DNA of 64,000 nt, taken from NCBI RefSeq assembly GCF_017565705.1, contig NZ_JAGDYL010000003.1, positions 1 to 64,000 of the forward strand, given 5' to 3'. Of the stretch, positions 727 through 57,585 are shown piece by piece. A program made the position numbers and the translations under genes. This stretch comes from Leucobacter ruminantium. Its GTDB lineage: Bacteria > Actinomycetota > Actinomycetes > Actinomycetales > Microbacteriaceae. The notes below the pieces were generated by a model that did no database searches, had not been told where the DNA came from, and saw only the letters and a list, made by a program, of their open reading frames with translations. Position 1 is the stretch's first letter. Every line of letters starts with the position of its first letter.

Positions 727-2021
727 GCCGCCGCCTCCACTCCGAAGTACCGCTGGGCGCCGCGGAGCGCGTCGAGGAAGCGATCGACCTCGTCCTCGGT
801 GGTGGTCAGGTGCACGCTCGCGCGTGTGGAAGAGGTGATGCCGAGCGCGCGGTGCAGGGGTTGCGCGCAGTGGTGGCCCACCCGCACCAGCACGCCCTGC
901 TCGTCGAGGAACTGCCCCACGTCGTGGGCGTGCAGGCCCTCGACCACGACCGAGGTCAGGGCGATCCGCTGCGAGGGATCGGCGGGGCCGAGCAGACGCA
1001 GTCCGGGCGTGGCGCTGATCCCCTCGACCAGCCGCTCGACGAGCTCGTGCTCGCGCGCTGCTGCGCGCTCCATGCCGACGCCCTCGAGGAATTCGACGGC
1101 CGCGCCGAGCCCGACCGCCTGGGAGACGGGCTGGGTGCCCGGCTCGAAGCGCATGGGCGGAGGCATGAACTGCGCAGATTCCATCGTCACCTTCGTGATC
1201 GCGGAGCCGCCCGTGCGCGACGGGGGCAGCGCCGCGAGCAGTTCCGGTCGCCCGTAGAGCACGCCGATGCCGTTGGGCCCGAGCATCTTGTGGCCCGAGA
1301 ACGCGGCGAAGTCGACGCCGAGGGCGTCGAGGTCGACCGGCATGTGCGGCACCGACTGACAGGCGTCGAGCACGGTGATCGCTCCCACCGAGCGCGCGAG
1401 TTCGGCGAGTTCGGCGACAGGCGCCACGTAACCGGTCGCGTTCGACACATGCGCGAAGGCGAATATGCGCGTGCGGGTGTTTAGCGCCTCGCGGGCGTCG
1501 TCGAGCGTCCAGGTGCCGTCCTCCCGGACGGGGATGTAGCGGAACGTCGCGCCGGTGCGGGCTGCCAGCCGCTGCCAGGGGATGAGATTCGCGTGGTGCT
1601 CGGCCTCCGTGACGAGGATCTCGTCGCCCGGGCCGAGTGCGAAGCGCTCACTGCCCGGAACGCCGAGCGCGGCTCCCGCGCTCGCCTCGCCGATCCCGAG
1701 GGCCACGATGTTGAGCGCGTCGGTGGCGTTCTCGGCCCAGACGATCTGCTCGGGCGCGGCGGCGCCCACGAAGGCCGCGACGCGGGCTCGTGCACCCTCG
1801 AACGCTGCGGTGGCGGCGCCGACCGCGCCGCTCGTGCCCCGGTGCACCGCCGCGTTCGCCGTCTCCAGGAAGTGCCGCTCGGCGTCGAGCACCGCGGTGG
1901 GCCGCTGCGAGGTGGCCGCCGCGTCGAGGTAGGCGGGCGGCTCGGGCTGCGCGTCGAGGGTCGCGAAGTAGGGGAAGGCCGCGCGCAGCTCGGCGACTTC
2001 TGAGGAGGTGAGGGATCCCAT
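723..2021 (-). CDS. sufS: SufS cysteine desulfurase
   Basis: SufS is a PLP-dependent class V aminotransferase-fold enzyme that removes sulfur from cysteine and passes it to SufU. With the start chosen here (432 residues) the PLP lysine is Lys245 in FSGHKMLGP, the PLP-stacking histidine lies in EAEHHAN near 142, and the persulfide cysteine is Cys385 in VGHHCAQP. The frame stays open upstream to 2264, but that part is arginine/proline-rich and unlike the family. The first plausible starts are ATG at 2030 (MERMGSL) and ATG at 2021 (MGSL). I prefer 2021 because GGAAGA sits about ten bases upstream. SufS is usually about 405-430 residues. Coupled to sufU downstream. Confidence 0.93.
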   Translation of the reverse strand: MGSLTSSEVAELRAAFPYFATLDAQPEPPAYLDAAATSQRPTAVLDAERHFLETANAAVHRGTSGAVGAATAAFEGARARVAAFVGAAAPEQIVWAENATDALNIVALGIGEASAGAALGVPGSERFALGPGDEILVTEAEHHANLIPWQRLAARTGATFRYIPVREDGTWTLDDAREALNTRTRIFAFAHVSNATGYVAPVAELAELARSVGAITVLDACQSVPHMPVDLDALGVDFAAFSGHKMLGPNGIGVLYGRPELLAALPPSRTGGSAITKVTMESAQFMPPPMRFEPGTQPVSQAVGLGAAVEFLEGVGMERAAAREHELVERLVEGISATPGLRLLGPADPSQRIALTSVVVEGLHAHDVGQFLDEQGVLVRVGHHCAQPLHRALGITSSTRASVHLTTTEDEVDRFLDALRGAQRYFGVEAAA

Positions 2022-51872: not shown

Positions 51873-52349
51873 ATGCGACTGCAGCCCAAGCCCGCCGACT
51901 ATCCGCGCATCCGGAAAGCGCTGAGCTTGTACAAGGTGACCTCGGTGATCACCGGCGTCATGCTGCTGCTGCTCTGCGCCGTGATGGTGATGAAATACGC
52001 CTTCGGCGTGCAGCTCTTCCTCTTCACCCCCGACGGCTTCGCGCACTTCTACCCGATCGCGCAGGAGGGGCTCGAGAGCGAGTTCAAGCCCGAAGGCTTC
52101 GATCTGTTCCGGGCCATCCTCATCGCGCACGGCTGGTTCTACGTCGTCTACCTCGTCTCGGACTTCATGCTGTGGAGCCCGATGCGATGGAGCTTCTGGC
52201 GCTTCATCCTCATCGCGCTCGGCGGCGTGATCCCCTTCATGTCCTTCTTCCTGGAGGCCCGCATCGTGCGCGAGGTCACCGAGTTCCTCGATTCGACCGC
52301 AGCCGTTCCAGCGGCTCCCGACTACGAAAGCGCAAAGGATCCCTCTTGA
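51873..52349 (+). CDS. DUF3817 membrane protein
   Basis: A 158-residue protein with three or four membrane segments and the DUF3817 features: a leading [32 protein letters not shown], and [16 protein letters not shown] near the C-terminus. Family members are common next to guaA in actinobacteria and have no known function. ATG 51873 is preferred over the ATG nine bases upstream because GGAG precedes it. The stop overlaps the TTG start of guaA. Confidence 0.87.
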
Positions 52350-53929
52350 CAGAACAGACCAACACGGCGCAGAAACCGGTTCTCGTCGTCGACTTCGGTG
52401 CGCAGTACGCGCAGCTGATCGCGCGCCGCGTGCGGGAGGCGGGGGTCTACTCCGAACTCGTGCCACACTCCATCACCGCAGCCGAGGTGGCCGCCAAGCA
52501 GCCGCTCGGCATCGTGCTGTCGGGCGGCCCCTCGTCCGTGTACGAGGAGGGTGCGCCGCGGCTCGACACCGGCATCTTCGACCTCGGCGTGCCCGTGCTC
52601 GGCATCTGCTACGGCTTCCAGGTCATGGCGAGCGCGCTCGGCGGAGTGGTCGGCAACACCGGCGACCGCGAGTACGGCGCGACCGAGGCGGTCGTCGTCG
52701 GCGGTGGCGGTGCGATCCTCGGCGGGCAGCCCGAGACCCAGAACGTGTGGATGAGCCACGGTGACGCCGTGCAGCAGGCACCTGAGGGCTTCGAGGTGCT
52801 CGCCCGCACAGCGGTCACCCCGGTCGCGGCGTTCGGATCGCCCGAGCGCAAGCTCTACGGCGTGCAGTGGCATCCCGAGGTGAAGCACTCCGATCACGGG
52901 CAGCGCATTCTCGAGAACTTCCTGCACGAGGTCGCCGGGATCCCCTCCGACTGGAACGCGGGCAACGTCATCGCCGAGCAGGTGGAGCGCATCCGCGCGC
53001 AGGTGGGCGATGCGCGCGTCATCTCCGCGCTGTCGGGCGGCGTCGACTCCGCCGTCTCGACCGCGCTCGTGCACAAGGCCATCGGCGACCAGCTGACCGC
53101 CGTGTTCGTCGACCACGGCCTGCTGCGCAAGGGCGAGCGCGAGCAGGTGGAGCGCGACTACGTCGAGTCGACCGGCGTGCACCTCATCACCGTCGACGCC
53201 GCCGACACCTTCCTCGGGCATCTCGAGGGCGTCACCGACCCCGAGCAGAAGCGCAAGATCATCGGCCGCGAGTTCATCCGCGCCTTCGAGAAGGTGCAGC
53301 TCGACCTCGTCGCCGAGGCAAAGGCCTCGGGTGAGAAGGTCAAGTTCCTCGTTCAGGGCACGCTCTACCCCGACGTGGTCGAGTCGGGCGGCGGCGCCGG
53401 CACCGCGAACATCAAGTCGCACCACAACGTCGGCGGCCTCCCCGAAGACCTCGACTTCGAGCTCATCGAGCCGTTGCGCACCCTGTTCAAGGACGAGGTG
53501 CGCGCGATCGGCCGCGAGCTCGGCATCCCTGAGGCCATCGTCGGCCGTCAGCCGTTCCCGGGCCCCGGTCTCGGCATCCGCATCGTCGGCGAGGTGACCC
53601 GCGATCGCCTCGAGACGCTGCGCGAGGCCGACGCGATCGCTCGCGAGGAGTTGACCGCGGCCGGTCTCGACCAGACGATCTGGCAGTGCCCGGTCGTGCT
53701 GCTCGCCGACGTGCGCTCGGTCGGCGTGCAGGGCGATGGCCGCACCTACGGCCATCCGATCGTGCTGCGTCCGGTCTCGTCGGAGGACGCGATGACGGCC
53801 GACTGGACCCGCGTGCCCTACGATGTGCTCGCACGCATCTCGAACCGCATCACGAACCAGGTGCCCGAGGTCAACCGCGTGGTGCTCGACGTCACCTCGA
53901 AGCCCCCGGGGACCATCGAGTGGGAATGA
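52346..53929 (+). CDS. guaA: GMP synthase (glutamine-hydrolysing)
   Basis: GuaA converts XMP to GMP. The 527-residue enzyme has the glutaminase nucleophile Cys88 in GICYGFQ, the WHPEVKH histidine/glutamate site, the PP-loop [12 protein letters not shown], and the dimerisation domain ending [11 protein letters not shown]. The start is TTG 52346, overlapping the DUF3817 stop (TTGA). Its ribosome-binding site AAAGGA is part of an octamer copy (GGATCCCTC). The stop codon is inside a 14-base inverted repeat. Confidence 0.96.
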
Positions 53930-54132: not shown

Positions 54133-54170
54133 TTGCGTGTCCTGAGCGGGGAGTGTGACAAGATATCGGG

Positions 54171-54710
54171 GTGCTTGGAGAACGCATTCGCAGACAGCGG
54201 CAGTCGATCGGAATGACGGCGCAGCAACTGGCGCGCGACGCCGGGCTGTCGCCGGCCCAGATCAGTCAGATCGAGCACGGGAACAGCGATCCGAGCCTCG
54301 ACGCGCTGCGTCGGATCGCGCGTGCGCTGGGAACGCCGCTGTTCGACTTCTTCTCGGAGAGTGAGGACGGCCCCGTGCGCGTCGTGCGGGAGGACGAGCG
54401 CATGGTCGTGCGCACGCCGCGCGGTGGTCTCTCGTATTCGCGGGTGTCGCCGGGGAGCGGTCGGCTCGAGGTGCTGATGGGGGAGCTGGCTCCCGGGGCT
54501 GCGTCGAGTGAGGAGCCGTGGGCGCATGCGCCGAGCGAGGAGTGCGTGCTCGTGCTGGCGGGAACGCTGACGCTGGAGGTGAACGGCGAGGAGGTCGAGC
54601 TGGCTGCGGGCGACAGCGCGTATTTCGCATCTGCGCATCCGCACCGCTTCCTGAACCGGACCGAGGCGGTGGTGCGGTTCACGCTGTCGGTGACGCCGCC
54701 CAGCTACTGA
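54171..54710 (+). CDS. XRE-family regulator with cupin domain
   Basis: A 179-residue regulator. Residues 5-60 are a Cro/C1-type helix-turn-helix (MTAQQLARDAGLSPAQISQIE, split at a turn). Residues 105-175 form a small cupin barrel (EECVLVLAGTLTLEV, GDSAYFASAHPHRF) that would bind a small ligand. This architecture regulates amino acid or polyamine catabolism and transport genes in many bacteria. The start GTG 54171 has no good ribosome-binding site; CAAGAT six bases upstream may be a -10. It lies upstream of the transporter/aminotransferase pair in the same direction and probably controls it. Confidence 0.9.
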   Translation: MLGERIRRQRQSIGMTAQQLARDAGLSPAQISQIEHGNSDPSLDALRRIARALGTPLFDFFSESEDGPVRVVREDERMVVRTPRGGLSYSRVSPGSGRLEVLMGELAPGAASSEEPWAHAPSEECVLVLAGTLTLEVNGEEVELAAGDSAYFASAHPHRFLNRTEAVVRFTLSVTPPSY

Positions 54711-54777
54711 CCGCCGGGCCGGGCGCGTCCGATGGGGGAGTGCGCGTCTCCGACTCCGCGGTGAGCGAGCACCTCAT

Positions 54778-54820
54778 CAGTTTCACTGATATTGAATTTC
54801 GCTTTTGTTTGAGTAAACTG
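54778..54820 (+). promoter_or_regulatory. Promoter and candidate operator of the NhaC-aminotransferase operon
   Basis: TTGAAT (54792-54797) and TAAACT (54814-54819) are 16 bases apart in a strikingly AT-rich stretch. An inverted repeat, CAGTTTCACT at 54778-54787 and AGTAAACTG at 54812-54820, brackets the promoter and is a natural candidate site for the XRE-cupin protein. Confidence 0.55.
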
Positions 54821-54897
54821 AGTCGAGCGCGATCCTCGCGCCGCGGCACCGCGAACGGCGGTGCCCACTTCGAACTCAGAACAGACAAAGGTGCCTC

Positions 54898-56433
54898 ATG
54901 AGTGAAGACCGGGCCGCAGCGCCCCTCCTCAGTTTCCGGATCGGCCTGCTCGGGGCCTTCATCGCGCCGATCGTGTTCGTCGTCTCGACGATCGTCTTCT
55001 TCGTGGTCTTCCGCGCGTTCGACATGAACGCGCTCACCGCAGCTGCCCTCGCGGGGCTCTTCATCGCGGCGCCCTTCGCGCGTCGCTACGACGCCTTCTG
55101 GGAGGCCGCGGCTCGGGGCGTCTCCTCGAAGACCTCCGTGATCCTGATCCTGCTCCTCTTCTCGATCGGCCTCACCTCCTCGCTCATCAAGTCGACCGGC
55201 ATCTCCGAGGGATTCATCTGGTTGTCCCTGTCGCTCGGCGTGCACGGCGGCCTCTTCATCGCGATCACCTTCGCGGCCGTGTGTGCCATCGCCATGGCCA
55301 CCGCATCGTCCCTCGGCACGATGTTCACCGCCTTCCCGATCTTCTACCCGGCCGGCTTCGTGCTGGGTGCCGATCCCGTGCTGCTCGCGGGTGCCATCCT
55401 GTCGGGCGCCCTCTTCGGCGACAACCTCGCTCCGATCTCCGACTCGACGGTCATCTCCTCGACGACGCAGCGCTACCGCACCAAGGACGGCACGGCCGAG
55501 GTGCCCGGCGTGGTCGGCAGCCGGCTGCGCTACTCGCTGACGGCCGCCGCCATCGCGTTCTGCCTCTTCCTCGGCATCGGAACGCTGGTCTCCCCGGGCA
55601 GCGAGGCCGTGGCCGGTGTCTCGCCCGACGACTTCTCTCCAGCCGGGCTCTGGATGCTCATCGCCGTCGTCGTGCTGCTCGGCACGGCGATCGTCACCCG
55701 CAACATCTTCAAGGCCGTGACCGCCGGCCTCGTATCGGGCATCGTGGTCGGCCTGCTGAGCGGCGTGCTCGAGCCCGCGGGCATCATCGGCGTCGAGGGT
55801 GACGCGATCACCGGCTTCCTCATCGGCGGGGTGGCGAACATCCTGCCCATCATCGGGCTCAACGTGGGTATCTTCGCGATGCTCGGCGTGCTCGAGAGCG
55901 CGGGCGTGCTCGACCGCCTCGTCGAGAAGGTCGTGTCGAGCGGCTGGGTCACCACGCCGCGACGCGCAGAGCTCGCGATCGGTGCCGGCATCCTCGCGAC
56001 GACCACCCTCTTCGCCGGGGTCAACGGCCCGTCGATGCTGGTCTTCGGCCCGATCGCCGATCGCATCGGCGCCCAGGTGAAGCTGCACCCGTTCCGCCGC
56101 GCCAACGTCATGGACTGCTTCGCACTCGGCCTCGGCAGTGTCGTGCCGGTGGTGAGCTCCTTCCTGTTCATCGCGAGCCTGCTCACGGTCGATCAGGGAT
56201 CCGCCCCGGCGCTCGACCCGATGTCGATCTTCACGGGCGCCTTCTACCCGCTCGTGCTCACCTGCGTCATCCTCACCGCTGTGCTCACCGGCTGGGGTCG
56301 CAGATACGAGGGCATCGGCGGTTCCGTCGAGAAGGATCCCTCGCGCGCGGCCGACCTCGATGCCGACGCGCCGCAGGCCGACCCGACCGCCGTCGGCGAC
56401 CAGCGCACCCGCACCACGACCGAAACCCGCTAA
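54898..56433 (+). CDS. NhaC-family antiporter-like transporter
   Basis: A 511-residue membrane protein with about twelve segments, of the NhaC sodium/proton antiporter family: LFGDNLAPISDSTVISST is the family signature in the first half, and GVNGPSMLVFGPIAD the corresponding phrase in the second. Family members also include malate/lactate and amino acid exchangers. Placement with a PLP enzyme and a cupin regulator suggests an organic substrate, but this is inference. The C-terminal 45 residues are polar. The ATG is preceded by AAAGG. Its stop is nine bases before the next gene. Confidence 0.85.
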   Translation: MSEDRAAAPLLSFRIGLLGAFIAPIVFVVSTIVFFVVFRAFDMNALTAAALAGLFIAAPFARRYDAFWEAAARGVSSKTSVILILLLFSIGLTSSLIKSTGISEGFIWLSLSLGVHGGLFIAITFAAVCAIAMATASSLGTMFTAFPIFYPAGFVLGADPVLLAGAILSGALFGDNLAPISDSTVISSTTQRYRTKDGTAEVPGVVGSRLRYSLTAAAIAFCLFLGIGTLVSPGSEAVAGVSPDDFSPAGLWMLIAVVVLLGTAIVTRNIFKAVTAGLVSGIVVGLLSGVLEPAGIIGVEGDAITGFLIGGVANILPIIGLNVGIFAMLGVLESAGVLDRLVEKVVSSGWVTTPRRAELAIGAGILATTTLFAGVNGPSMLVFGPIADRIGAQVKLHPFRRANVMDCFALGLGSVVPVVSSFLFIASLLTVDQGSAPALDPMSIFTGAFYPLVLTCVILTAVLTGWGRRYEGIGGSVEKDPSRAADLDADAPQADPTAVGDQRTRTTTETR

Positions 56434-56442
56434 GGAGAAACC

Positions 56443-57585
56443 ATGTCCGCCACTCCCGCACCGCTCGCCCCTGCGCAGTTCCGCACGCTGTTCCCCGCCC
56501 TCGACGATGCGCCGCACTTCGCGAGCTGCAGCCAGGGCGCGCTCTCCGATCACCTCGCCCACACGATGCAGCGCATGACCGCCGGGCTCATGGACGCGCA
56601 GGCGCCGTGGGGCGCGTGGGTCGCCAAGGTGGAGGAGTACCGATCCCTCGCCGGCCGCTTTCTCGGCACCAGCGGGGAGAACGTCGCCGTCCTCTCCTGC
56701 GCTTCCGAGTGCGCCTTCCAGGTGGTCTCCTCGCTCGACTGGAGCGGCGAGCGCAACCGCCTCGTCACCTCGGATCTCGAGTTCCCCTCGGTCGGCAACG
56801 TGTGGCGCGCGCAGCGCGACGGGATCGACGTCGTGAACGTCGAGGGCGTCGAGGCTGCACTGCACGCCGACAACTGGATCCCGCTCATCGACGAGCGCAC
56901 CAAACTCGTGTCGATCCCTCTCGTCAGCTACATCAACGGCACCCGCCCCGAGATCGAGCGCGTCGTCGAGCACGCCCACTCGGTCGGAGCGCTCGTGTTC
57001 GTGGACGCCTACCAGGGCGCGGGCGTCGTGCCCTTCTCGGTCGATGGGCTCGGCTGCGACTACCTCGTGACGGGCAACCTGAAGTACCTGCTCGGTCTGC
57101 CCGGCATCGCGATGCTCTACGTGCGCGACAGCGGGAACGTGGAGCGCCCCGCCGCCCTGACGGGCTGGTTCGGCCGGGTGAACCCGTTCGCGTTCGACCC
57201 CGCGGGCGTCGACTACCCGGCCAACGCGCGCCGTTTCGAGCTGGGCACCCATCCGATCCCCTCGGCCTACGCGGGCGTCGCCGGCTTCGAGATGGTCGCG
57301 AAGCTCGACCCCGCCGCCGCGTGGGAGCACATCGTGGGGCTTCGCGAGTACCTCGCCGAGCAGCTGCGCGGGCTCGGCCTGCAGCTCGACTACCCGGAGG
57401 ACGCCGCGCACCGAGGTCCCCAGGTGGCCGTGATCGGCGAGGATCCCGACGATCTCGCCGCGCGCCTCGCCGAGCGGCGCATCGGCACCTCGCCCCGAGG
57501 TGAGCGGCTGCGCCTCTCGCTGCACGCCTACTCGGCCGAGCGCGACATCGACGCGCTGGTCTCGGCGCTGCGCGAGGTGCGCTGA
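56443..57585 (+). CDS. Class V aminotransferase-fold PLP enzyme
   Basis: A 380-residue fold-type I PLP enzyme of class V. The presumed PLP lysine is in TGNLKYLLGLPG near 215, the PLP-ring aspartate in FVDAYQGAGV, and SYINGTRPEI precedes it. The lysine context (NLKYL rather than the SxHK of cysteine desulfurases) places it nearer to the kynureninase/isopenicillin-epimerase-like subgroup. Reaction unknown. The ATG follows AAGGAG nine bases after the transporter. Transporter and enzyme probably act on one amino compound. Confidence 0.85.
   Translation: MSATPAPLAPAQFRTLFPALDDAPHFASCSQGALSDHLAHTMQRMTAGLMDAQAPWGAWVAKVEEYRSLAGRFLGTSGENVAVLSCASECAFQVVSSLDWSGERNRLVTSDLEFPSVGNVWRAQRDGIDVVNVEGVEAALHADNWIPLIDERTKLVSIPLVSYINGTRPEIERVVEHAHSVGALVFVDAYQGAGVVPFSVDGLGCDYLVTGNLKYLLGLPGIAMLYVRDSGNVERPAALTGWFGRVNPFAFDPAGVDYPANARRFELGTHPIPSAYAGVAGFEMVAKLDPAAAWEHIVGLREYLAEQLRGLGLQLDYPEDAAHRGPQVAVIGEDPDDLAARLAERRIGTSPRGERLRLSLHAYSAERDIDALVSALREVR

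Follow-up and report, generated by a model that had tools for sequence, protein, structure and literature searches.

We analysed a window of 64,000 nucleotides (positions 1 to 64,000 of contig NZ_JAGDYL010000003.1, assembly GCF_017565705.1) from the 3.3-Mb genome of Leucobacter ruminantium, and in it a locus where the gene of an XRE-cupin regulator is followed by those of an NhaC-superfamily transporter and a class V pyridoxal 5'-phosphate (PLP) enzyme (Table 1). An original prediction, made from the sequence alone, had named the three genes in this way, and the names hold: the open reading frames (ORFs) all lie on the plus strand and their products carry the matching Pfam domains above cut-off (HTH_3 at 55 bits, cut-off 23, and Cupin_2 at 62 bits, cut-off 27.2, in the regulator; PF03553 at 53.2 bits, gathering score 23, in the transporter; Aminotran_5 at 113 bits, cut-off 21.5, in the enzyme). 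The regulator has both the N-terminal XRE helix-turn-helix and the C-terminal cupin that XRE-cupin local regulators require. The transporter and enzyme genes are close-set, with a gap of 9 bases, the first being GGAG, between the stop of one and the start of the other.

Table 1. Features of the XRE-cupin, NhaC and PLP enzyme locus, in positions of the 64,000-nucleotide window.
Feature	Position	Strand	Remarks
XRE-cupin transcription regulator	54171..54710	+	179 aa, GTG start; HTH_3 + Cupin_2
NhaC-superfamily (PF03553) membrane transporter	54898..56433	+	511 aa
Class V PLP enzyme, kynureninase-related family	56443..57585	+	380 aa, K214, TGWFGRVNPF at residues 240-249
Candidate promoter	54792..54819	+	TTGAAT (54792-54797), 16 bp, TAAACT (54814-54819); read by eye
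Candidate operator TTCACTGATATTGAA (TTYA-N6-TTGAA)	54782..54796	+	overlaps -35
Inverted repeat CAGTTTCACT/AGTAAACTG of the original prediction	54778..54820	+	bulged 6+3 bp match; not conserved
Upstream ORF	52172-53929		GMP synthase by reading of translation

The neighbourhood is conserved in other genomes. A pattern scan of genome contigs gave 46 enzyme loci, and 12 of 13 further loci were added to make 58 relative loci (L087, at the same place as L006, was omitted). The gene-neighbourhood survey that had been proposed as a check found the trio together in eight other Leucobacter (L004-L009, L085 and L086, although in L004 the contig ends within the regulator). Glutamicibacter soli (L010) has it too, with an NhaC of 49% identity and an inverted regulator, so the possibility that the neighbours are not conserved together fails. 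The enzyme is present in 10 of the 54 genus genomes surveyed (66-100% identity; two matches of 29% identity were not counted as orthologues), and nine of these ten also have an NhaC orthologue (at least 80% identity). The tenth, G242, agrees in both identity and position with the Ca. L. sulfamidivorax locus (L011), and no such orthologue was found without the enzyme among the 54 genomes. At 1e-40 the enzyme occurs only in the own genome among 199 genomes of the family; it occurs in 25 of 394 genomes of the class.

In 14 of the 58 relative loci the regulator is no more than 3.5 kb from the enzyme, including the eight Leucobacter trios, and at 86-209 bp from it, with no NhaC, in L011-L014 and L092. 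An ABC solute-binding protein adjoins the enzyme in L011 and an oligopeptide-type one in L013, while an amino-acid permease is found at L092 and L093; such pairs of regulator and enzyme with other transport genes indicate that the enzyme kept its regulator while the transporter changed. By tblastn, 36 of the 58 loci have a transport gene at most 3.5 kb away from the enzyme (TctC 14, NhaC 9, APC 8, SNF 3, ABC 2), a descriptive count with no background, whose probes were picked from neighbours already seen and in which related loci are counted separately.

The enzyme carries the signature TGWFGRVNPF, shared by proteins from Actinomycetota, Bacillota, Pseudomonadota, Acidobacteriota and Gemmatimonadota. 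We aligned 22 of 47 proteins (that of the window and those of the 46 scanned loci), hand-picked for spread, and all 22 keep C29-S30, W56, D188, Y190, Q191, K214, the signature itself, R352, R357 and H361. The lysine motif NLKYL, to which the original prediction had pointed, is present around K214, with an asparagine that varies in relatives; the departure from cysteine desulfurases that it was meant to mark stands on other evidence, as the column of their catalytic cysteine is a gap in all 22 rows. The top PDB match of the family profile is a kynureninase (1qz9, 137 bits). In a tree with 13 SufS, 13 kynureninases and 4 VC1184-type enzymes, a branch with 100/100 support unites the family and the kynureninases, apart from SufS and VC1184. 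The 22 family members group with 12 class hits at 99/98 support and the 13 kynureninases apart from them at 100/100, and another 12 class hits are placed on the side of the kynureninases (91/77); KYNU_L118 was dropped from the second tree for its long branch, and one VC1184 row of less than 300 aa from both trees. The kynureninase model TIGR01814 (cut-off 246) was not reported for the window protein at E 0.001 and was weak in three of five relatives (43-78 bits), and a kynureninase search of the own genome reported only C25:888-1556 on the minus strand. Judged from these comparisons, the TGWFGRVNPF enzymes are an uncharacterised PLP family related to kynureninase and branching outside the kynureninases.

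The predicted pocket looks kynureninase-like on its substrate side and not on its catalytic side. The family keeps, as S30, W56, W242, T269, R352 and R357, the positions of S36, W64, W256, T282, R369 and R375 of the Pseudomonas fluorescens kynureninase, numbered by hand from the profile alignment. All are kept in 22/22 rows except T269 (21/22); among 14 kynureninases, W64 is kept in 13 and T282 is threonine in nine. At the positions of Asp132, His204 and Tyr226, invariant in 14/14 kynureninases, the window enzyme has V117, Q191 and L213, and the family has V/I/L/M, Q and L/Q/M, with none of the three kept across the 22 rows. With these replacements, kynureninase chemistry is not implied. C29, R245, N247 and H361 are found in 22/22 family rows and 0/14 kynureninases. 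The roles of S36, W64, D132, H204, Y226, W256, T282 and R375 in the P. fluorescens enzyme are those that we presume. No primary paper on them was found in the literature searched, and the available part of PMC12451956 holds no residue data.

One might still think of kynurenine scavenging, in which the carrier imports L-kynurenine and a diverged kynureninase yields anthranilate and alanine. The retained Ser, Trp, Thr and Arg positions would fit (S36, W64, W256, T282 and R375, the Thr being found in only nine of the 14 kynureninases), as would the top profile match. Since the own genome has no match to tryptophan 2,3-dioxygenase (TDO), kynurenine would need to be imported, and five more distant family members adjoin a Trp-dioxygenase-superfamily gene and a flavin adenine dinucleotide (FAD) hydroxylase. 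Yet the three catalytic positions are changed in every family row, TIGR01814 is silent on the window protein, the tree places the family outside the kynureninases, one genome (G264) has a true kynureninase as well as a family member, and across the genus TDO is not tied to the enzyme (present in 4 of 10 carriers and in 17 of all 54 genomes), all of which makes scavenging unlikely. Membership in kynureninase proper was rejected on the first three of these grounds, and a link to the host Trp-to-kynurenine pathway because the own genome gives no TDO match and the two do not co-occur in the genus; the literature searched on Leucobacter and kynurenine returned only unrelated papers. The five loci themselves (L015:6001-9993, L016:6001-9870, L088, L089 and L090) combine the enzyme relative with a distant Trp-2,3-dioxygenase-superfamily gene (PF03301 at 53-62 bits, four of five scanned) and an FAD aromatic hydroxylase, and could possibly encode an uncharacterised aromatic amino-acid pathway.

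The transporter cannot be assigned to the Na+/H+ antiporter NhaC, for which it scores 38.5 bits against an equivalog cut-off of 370 (TIGR00931). Its AlphaFold2 model (pLDDT 77) has the MleN-MetQ integrative model 9a59 as top PDB match, followed by TRAP and divalent-anion carriers, and we take MleN to be a member of the NhaC family. A second NhaC group, 48-52% identical, occurs in eight genus genomes. In the NhaC tree three Leucobacter groups track their partner enzymes with 99-100% support; the program warned of long branches meeting, and the NhaC of L117 was left out, as it is split. This gene (L117:6789-8275, genome G210) is broken into two ORFs by a frameshift or a sequencing error. L110, L112, L113, L114 and L115 each have a sister NhaC (48-51%) and, divergent from it, a class V PLP enzyme. 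These partner enzymes form one cluster (5/5), with TIGR01976 (VC1184) over cut-off in 2/2 scanned, and an Lrp/AsnC regulator is found at these loci (2 of 5 scanned). This is a second pairing of NhaC with a class V enzyme.

Other sister carriers (~50%) lie beside DAO in L109, L111 and L117. L111 and L117 add a DHDPS-family gene, and L109 and L117 a soxA-like oxidoreductase whose BFD domain falls below cut-off; Fer2_4 is present at L117 and an XRE-cupin at L111. The full set of DHDPS, DAO, Fer2_4 and soxA/BFD is found only in L117 among the sister NhaC loci, and no proline-racemase gene was found among the scanned neighbours. This set is the hydroxyproline gene set SCO6289-6292 (PMC6608401; PMC4113996; these and the other papers cited here were available in part), and the Streptomyces D-hydroxyproline dehydrogenase and Pyr4H2C deaminase have a domain set including DAO and DHDPS (PMC6608401); PMC4113996 gives the families of the pathway. 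Their place beside genes of this type suggests that the sister NhaC of L109, L111 and L117 may be an uncharacterised hydroxyproline carrier; the literature searched on NhaC and hydroxyproline gave only unrelated papers. Together with NhaC genes on record under Tyr T-box control (PMC2494555) and the recorded uptake of D-Asn by MleN (PMC10882977), the sister loci make it likely, by analogy, that the Leucobacter transporter carries an amino acid. The exchange mode of the original prediction is possible.

The direction of transport bears on another explanation, detoxification, in which a toxic amino acid or antimetabolite is inactivated by the enzyme, and it or its product leaves the cell through the carrier. 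The sister carriers sit with catabolic-type enzymes, and the partners of the enzyme elsewhere are APC, SNF, ABC and TctC genes, which are mostly uptake families. Both points argue against export, whereas a weak match of the transporter to the Tet(35) efflux family (27 bits, cut-off 750) and the ability of XRE-cupin units to control exporters, such as PA1359-PA1360 (PMC7901475), speak for it. On balance we find an efflux function improbable.

The 187-bp gap between the regulator and transporter genes was originally described as an AT-rich promoter bracketed by an inverted repeat. The AT-rich stretch and the arms CAGTTTCACT...AGTAAACTG are indeed present, and it is the operator role that lacks support: the left arm, CAGTTT, is found in 0/8 Leucobacter relatives, which led us to reject the repeat as operator, and a repeat search did not pick it up. 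Among 1000 dinucleotide shuffles of the gap, 4.2% reach the observed count of bulged repeats (2) and 15% that of plain 6-bp repeats (6). The right arm holds a -10-like box, TAAACT, and AGTAAACT, which includes it, is present in seven of the eight relatives. When the nine Leucobacter gaps are aligned, TT-A and TTGAA are invariant and TAAACT is kept in eight; the candidate promoter was read by eye, and a consensus scanner reported none in this gap. The motif TTYA-N6-TTGAA, derived post hoc from the same nine sequences used for counting, occurs in all nine intergenic regions. It is found once in the window and is confined to the same site in seven 13-kb relatives scanned (L004 was omitted), appearing on both strands in L007 and L008 because the site is palindromic there. 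Its overlap with the -35 is the position expected of a repressor site, and it is most likely the operator, as a candidate read from conservation.

As for the regulator, the His/Glu/His positions of the cupin are retained, by eye, in 14/14 aligned rows. Assignment to PuuR (NF007408) fails, at 79.5 bits against an equivalog cut-off of 211. In the stretch 54150-54173 a CAGAATA/AAGATA-like box lies a few bases before its GTG start and, by eye, also in relatives, which suggests that the transcript may be leaderless. In Pseudomonas, XRE-cupin proteins act as local repressors of adjacent genes for transporters and enzymes, and repression ends once they sense a metabolite (PMC7901475).

By analogy with these regulators, we infer that the locus is probably a unit for the uptake and conversion of one alpha-amino acid, under local repression. 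Its XRE-cupin protein would bind the promoter ahead of the two-gene operon, most likely at the palindrome over the -35, and would release it when the amino acid or a product occupies the cupin domain. The carrier would then import the amino acid, and the PLP enzyme would convert it. The most likely chemistry would be a side-chain cleavage or elimination on a bulky or aromatic amino acid, which we favour because the pocket is kynureninase-like. The amino-compound theme and the module of the original prediction are upheld by the conserved neighbourhood, the sister carriers in amino-acid catabolic loci and the XRE-cupin local repressors.

Several observations weigh against this interpretation, and some concern the placement of the enzyme. 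With the single sequence, the top PDB match is a SufS-type desulfurase (4w91, 70 bits) and kynureninase comes second (61). With the profile, the lead of kynureninase over the next match, a plant desulfurase, is small (137 vs 129 bits). The fold of the AlphaFold2 model (pLDDT 86) ties kynureninase and SufS (Foldseek 5.2e-24 vs 9.2e-24; VIA Z 39.2 vs 39.4), and the best NCBIfam model is SufS (TIGR01979) at 82.5 bits, below its cut-off of 475; in scans of six family proteins (window, L012, L015, L019, L033, L092) no model exceeded its cut-off and SufS was top in each. The enzyme tree was midpoint-rooted, and its VC1184 rows drew a warning of long branches. A cysteine desulfurase or C-S lyase in sulfur metabolism would account for the fold, the several desulfurase models below cut-off and the single-sequence match. 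It would have to do so with a gap at the catalytic Cys column (C in 13/13 SufS; in a single row, L017, a Cys lies no more than 12 columns away) and in a genome that already has a SufS elsewhere in the window (744-1991, minus strand). We rejected a cysteine desulfurase for lack of the catalytic Cys and see hardly any likelihood in a sulfur role. This window SufS gene itself scores 479.9 bits, barely above 475, and lies on a long branch among actinobacterial SufS.

The remaining objections come from the neighbourhoods. None of the probed transporters is found in 22 of the 58 loci, and the name of the commonest partner, TctC, stands for a binding protein of tricarboxylate type and does not itself point to amino acids. 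In other phyla (Variovorax, several Bacillota) a CRP-type regulator replaces the XRE-cupin; one lies near enzyme relatives adjoined by a YitT membrane protein in L019, L025, L028 and L032. The palindrome is not evident, by eye, in Nonomuraea, Arthrobacter and Glutamicibacter, and the Glutamicibacter NhaC stands alone on a long branch, apart from the Leucobacter NhaC, despite a 74%-identical enzyme. At least five of the nine copies in Leucobacter adjoin guaA (Pfam identifies the c12 gene of L008 as a GMP synthase), and downstream neighbours are common to L004, L005, L007 and L008, so the synteny is in part inherited. This guaA-side location could be taken as a sign of a neighbourhood assembled by chance or merely inherited, with no common function. 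Such an origin is very unlikely given the module in Glutamicibacter, the pairing of regulator and enzyme in Nonomuraea and Arthrobacter, the inverted or displaced copies in other Leucobacter, and the match between Leucobacter NhaC groups and partner enzymes, from which Glutamicibacter is excepted.

A bolder extension of the uptake-and-conversion unit, which we offer tentatively, is that the TGWFGRVNPF proteins may be a new catalytic family with a kynureninase substrate pocket and a rebuilt acid/base machinery (Cys29, Gln191 and His361, with Arg245/Asn247 in the pocket loop). It would perform a PLP reaction novel to class V on an imported amino acid, fed by recruited transporters of at least five families (NhaC, APC, SNF, ABC and TctC-type). 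The claim that the system was not yet described holds for the enzyme family and its substrate, as we found no paper on the TGWFGRVNPF family or the NhaC and class V pair in the literature searched; it does not hold for the architecture of XRE-cupin, transporter and enzyme, which has been described. The sharp signature and the frequent transport-gene neighbours let the substrate of the enzyme family be sought directly, and the neighbourhoods suggest that a group of Leucobacter genes resembling Na+/H+ antiporters are amino-acid carriers.

Several known systems resemble parts of the locus. Like the Pseudomonas XRE-cupin units, as given in the available part of PMC7901475, it has an XRE-cupin gene adjoining transporter and enzyme genes, with palindromic sites expected; the Leucobacter genes and phylum differ. 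SufS and CsdA share the class V fold and a Gln where the enzyme has Q191 (the own SufS reads DACQ), but have the catalytic Cys that the enzyme lacks and lie on a separate branch. The transporter is of the same Pfam family as the NhaC/MleN antiporters (PF03553, TIGR00931) and has an MleN model as top structural match, but with 38.5 bits stays far short of the 370 set for NhaC. Hydroxyproline loci of the SCO6289-6293 type (available part of PMC6608401) have counterparts with the sister NhaC (~50%) and, in L111, an XRE-cupin, whereas the Leucobacter operon has the PLP enzyme and no DHDPS or DAO genes. With kynureninase (TIGR01814; P. fluorescens 1qz9) the enzyme shares the fold, the PLP lysine, the Ser/Trp/Thr/Arg pocket positions and the GWFG loop, but it replaces Asp132, His204 and Tyr226, has its own invariant Cys29, Arg245, Asn247 and His361, and belongs to a separate clade.

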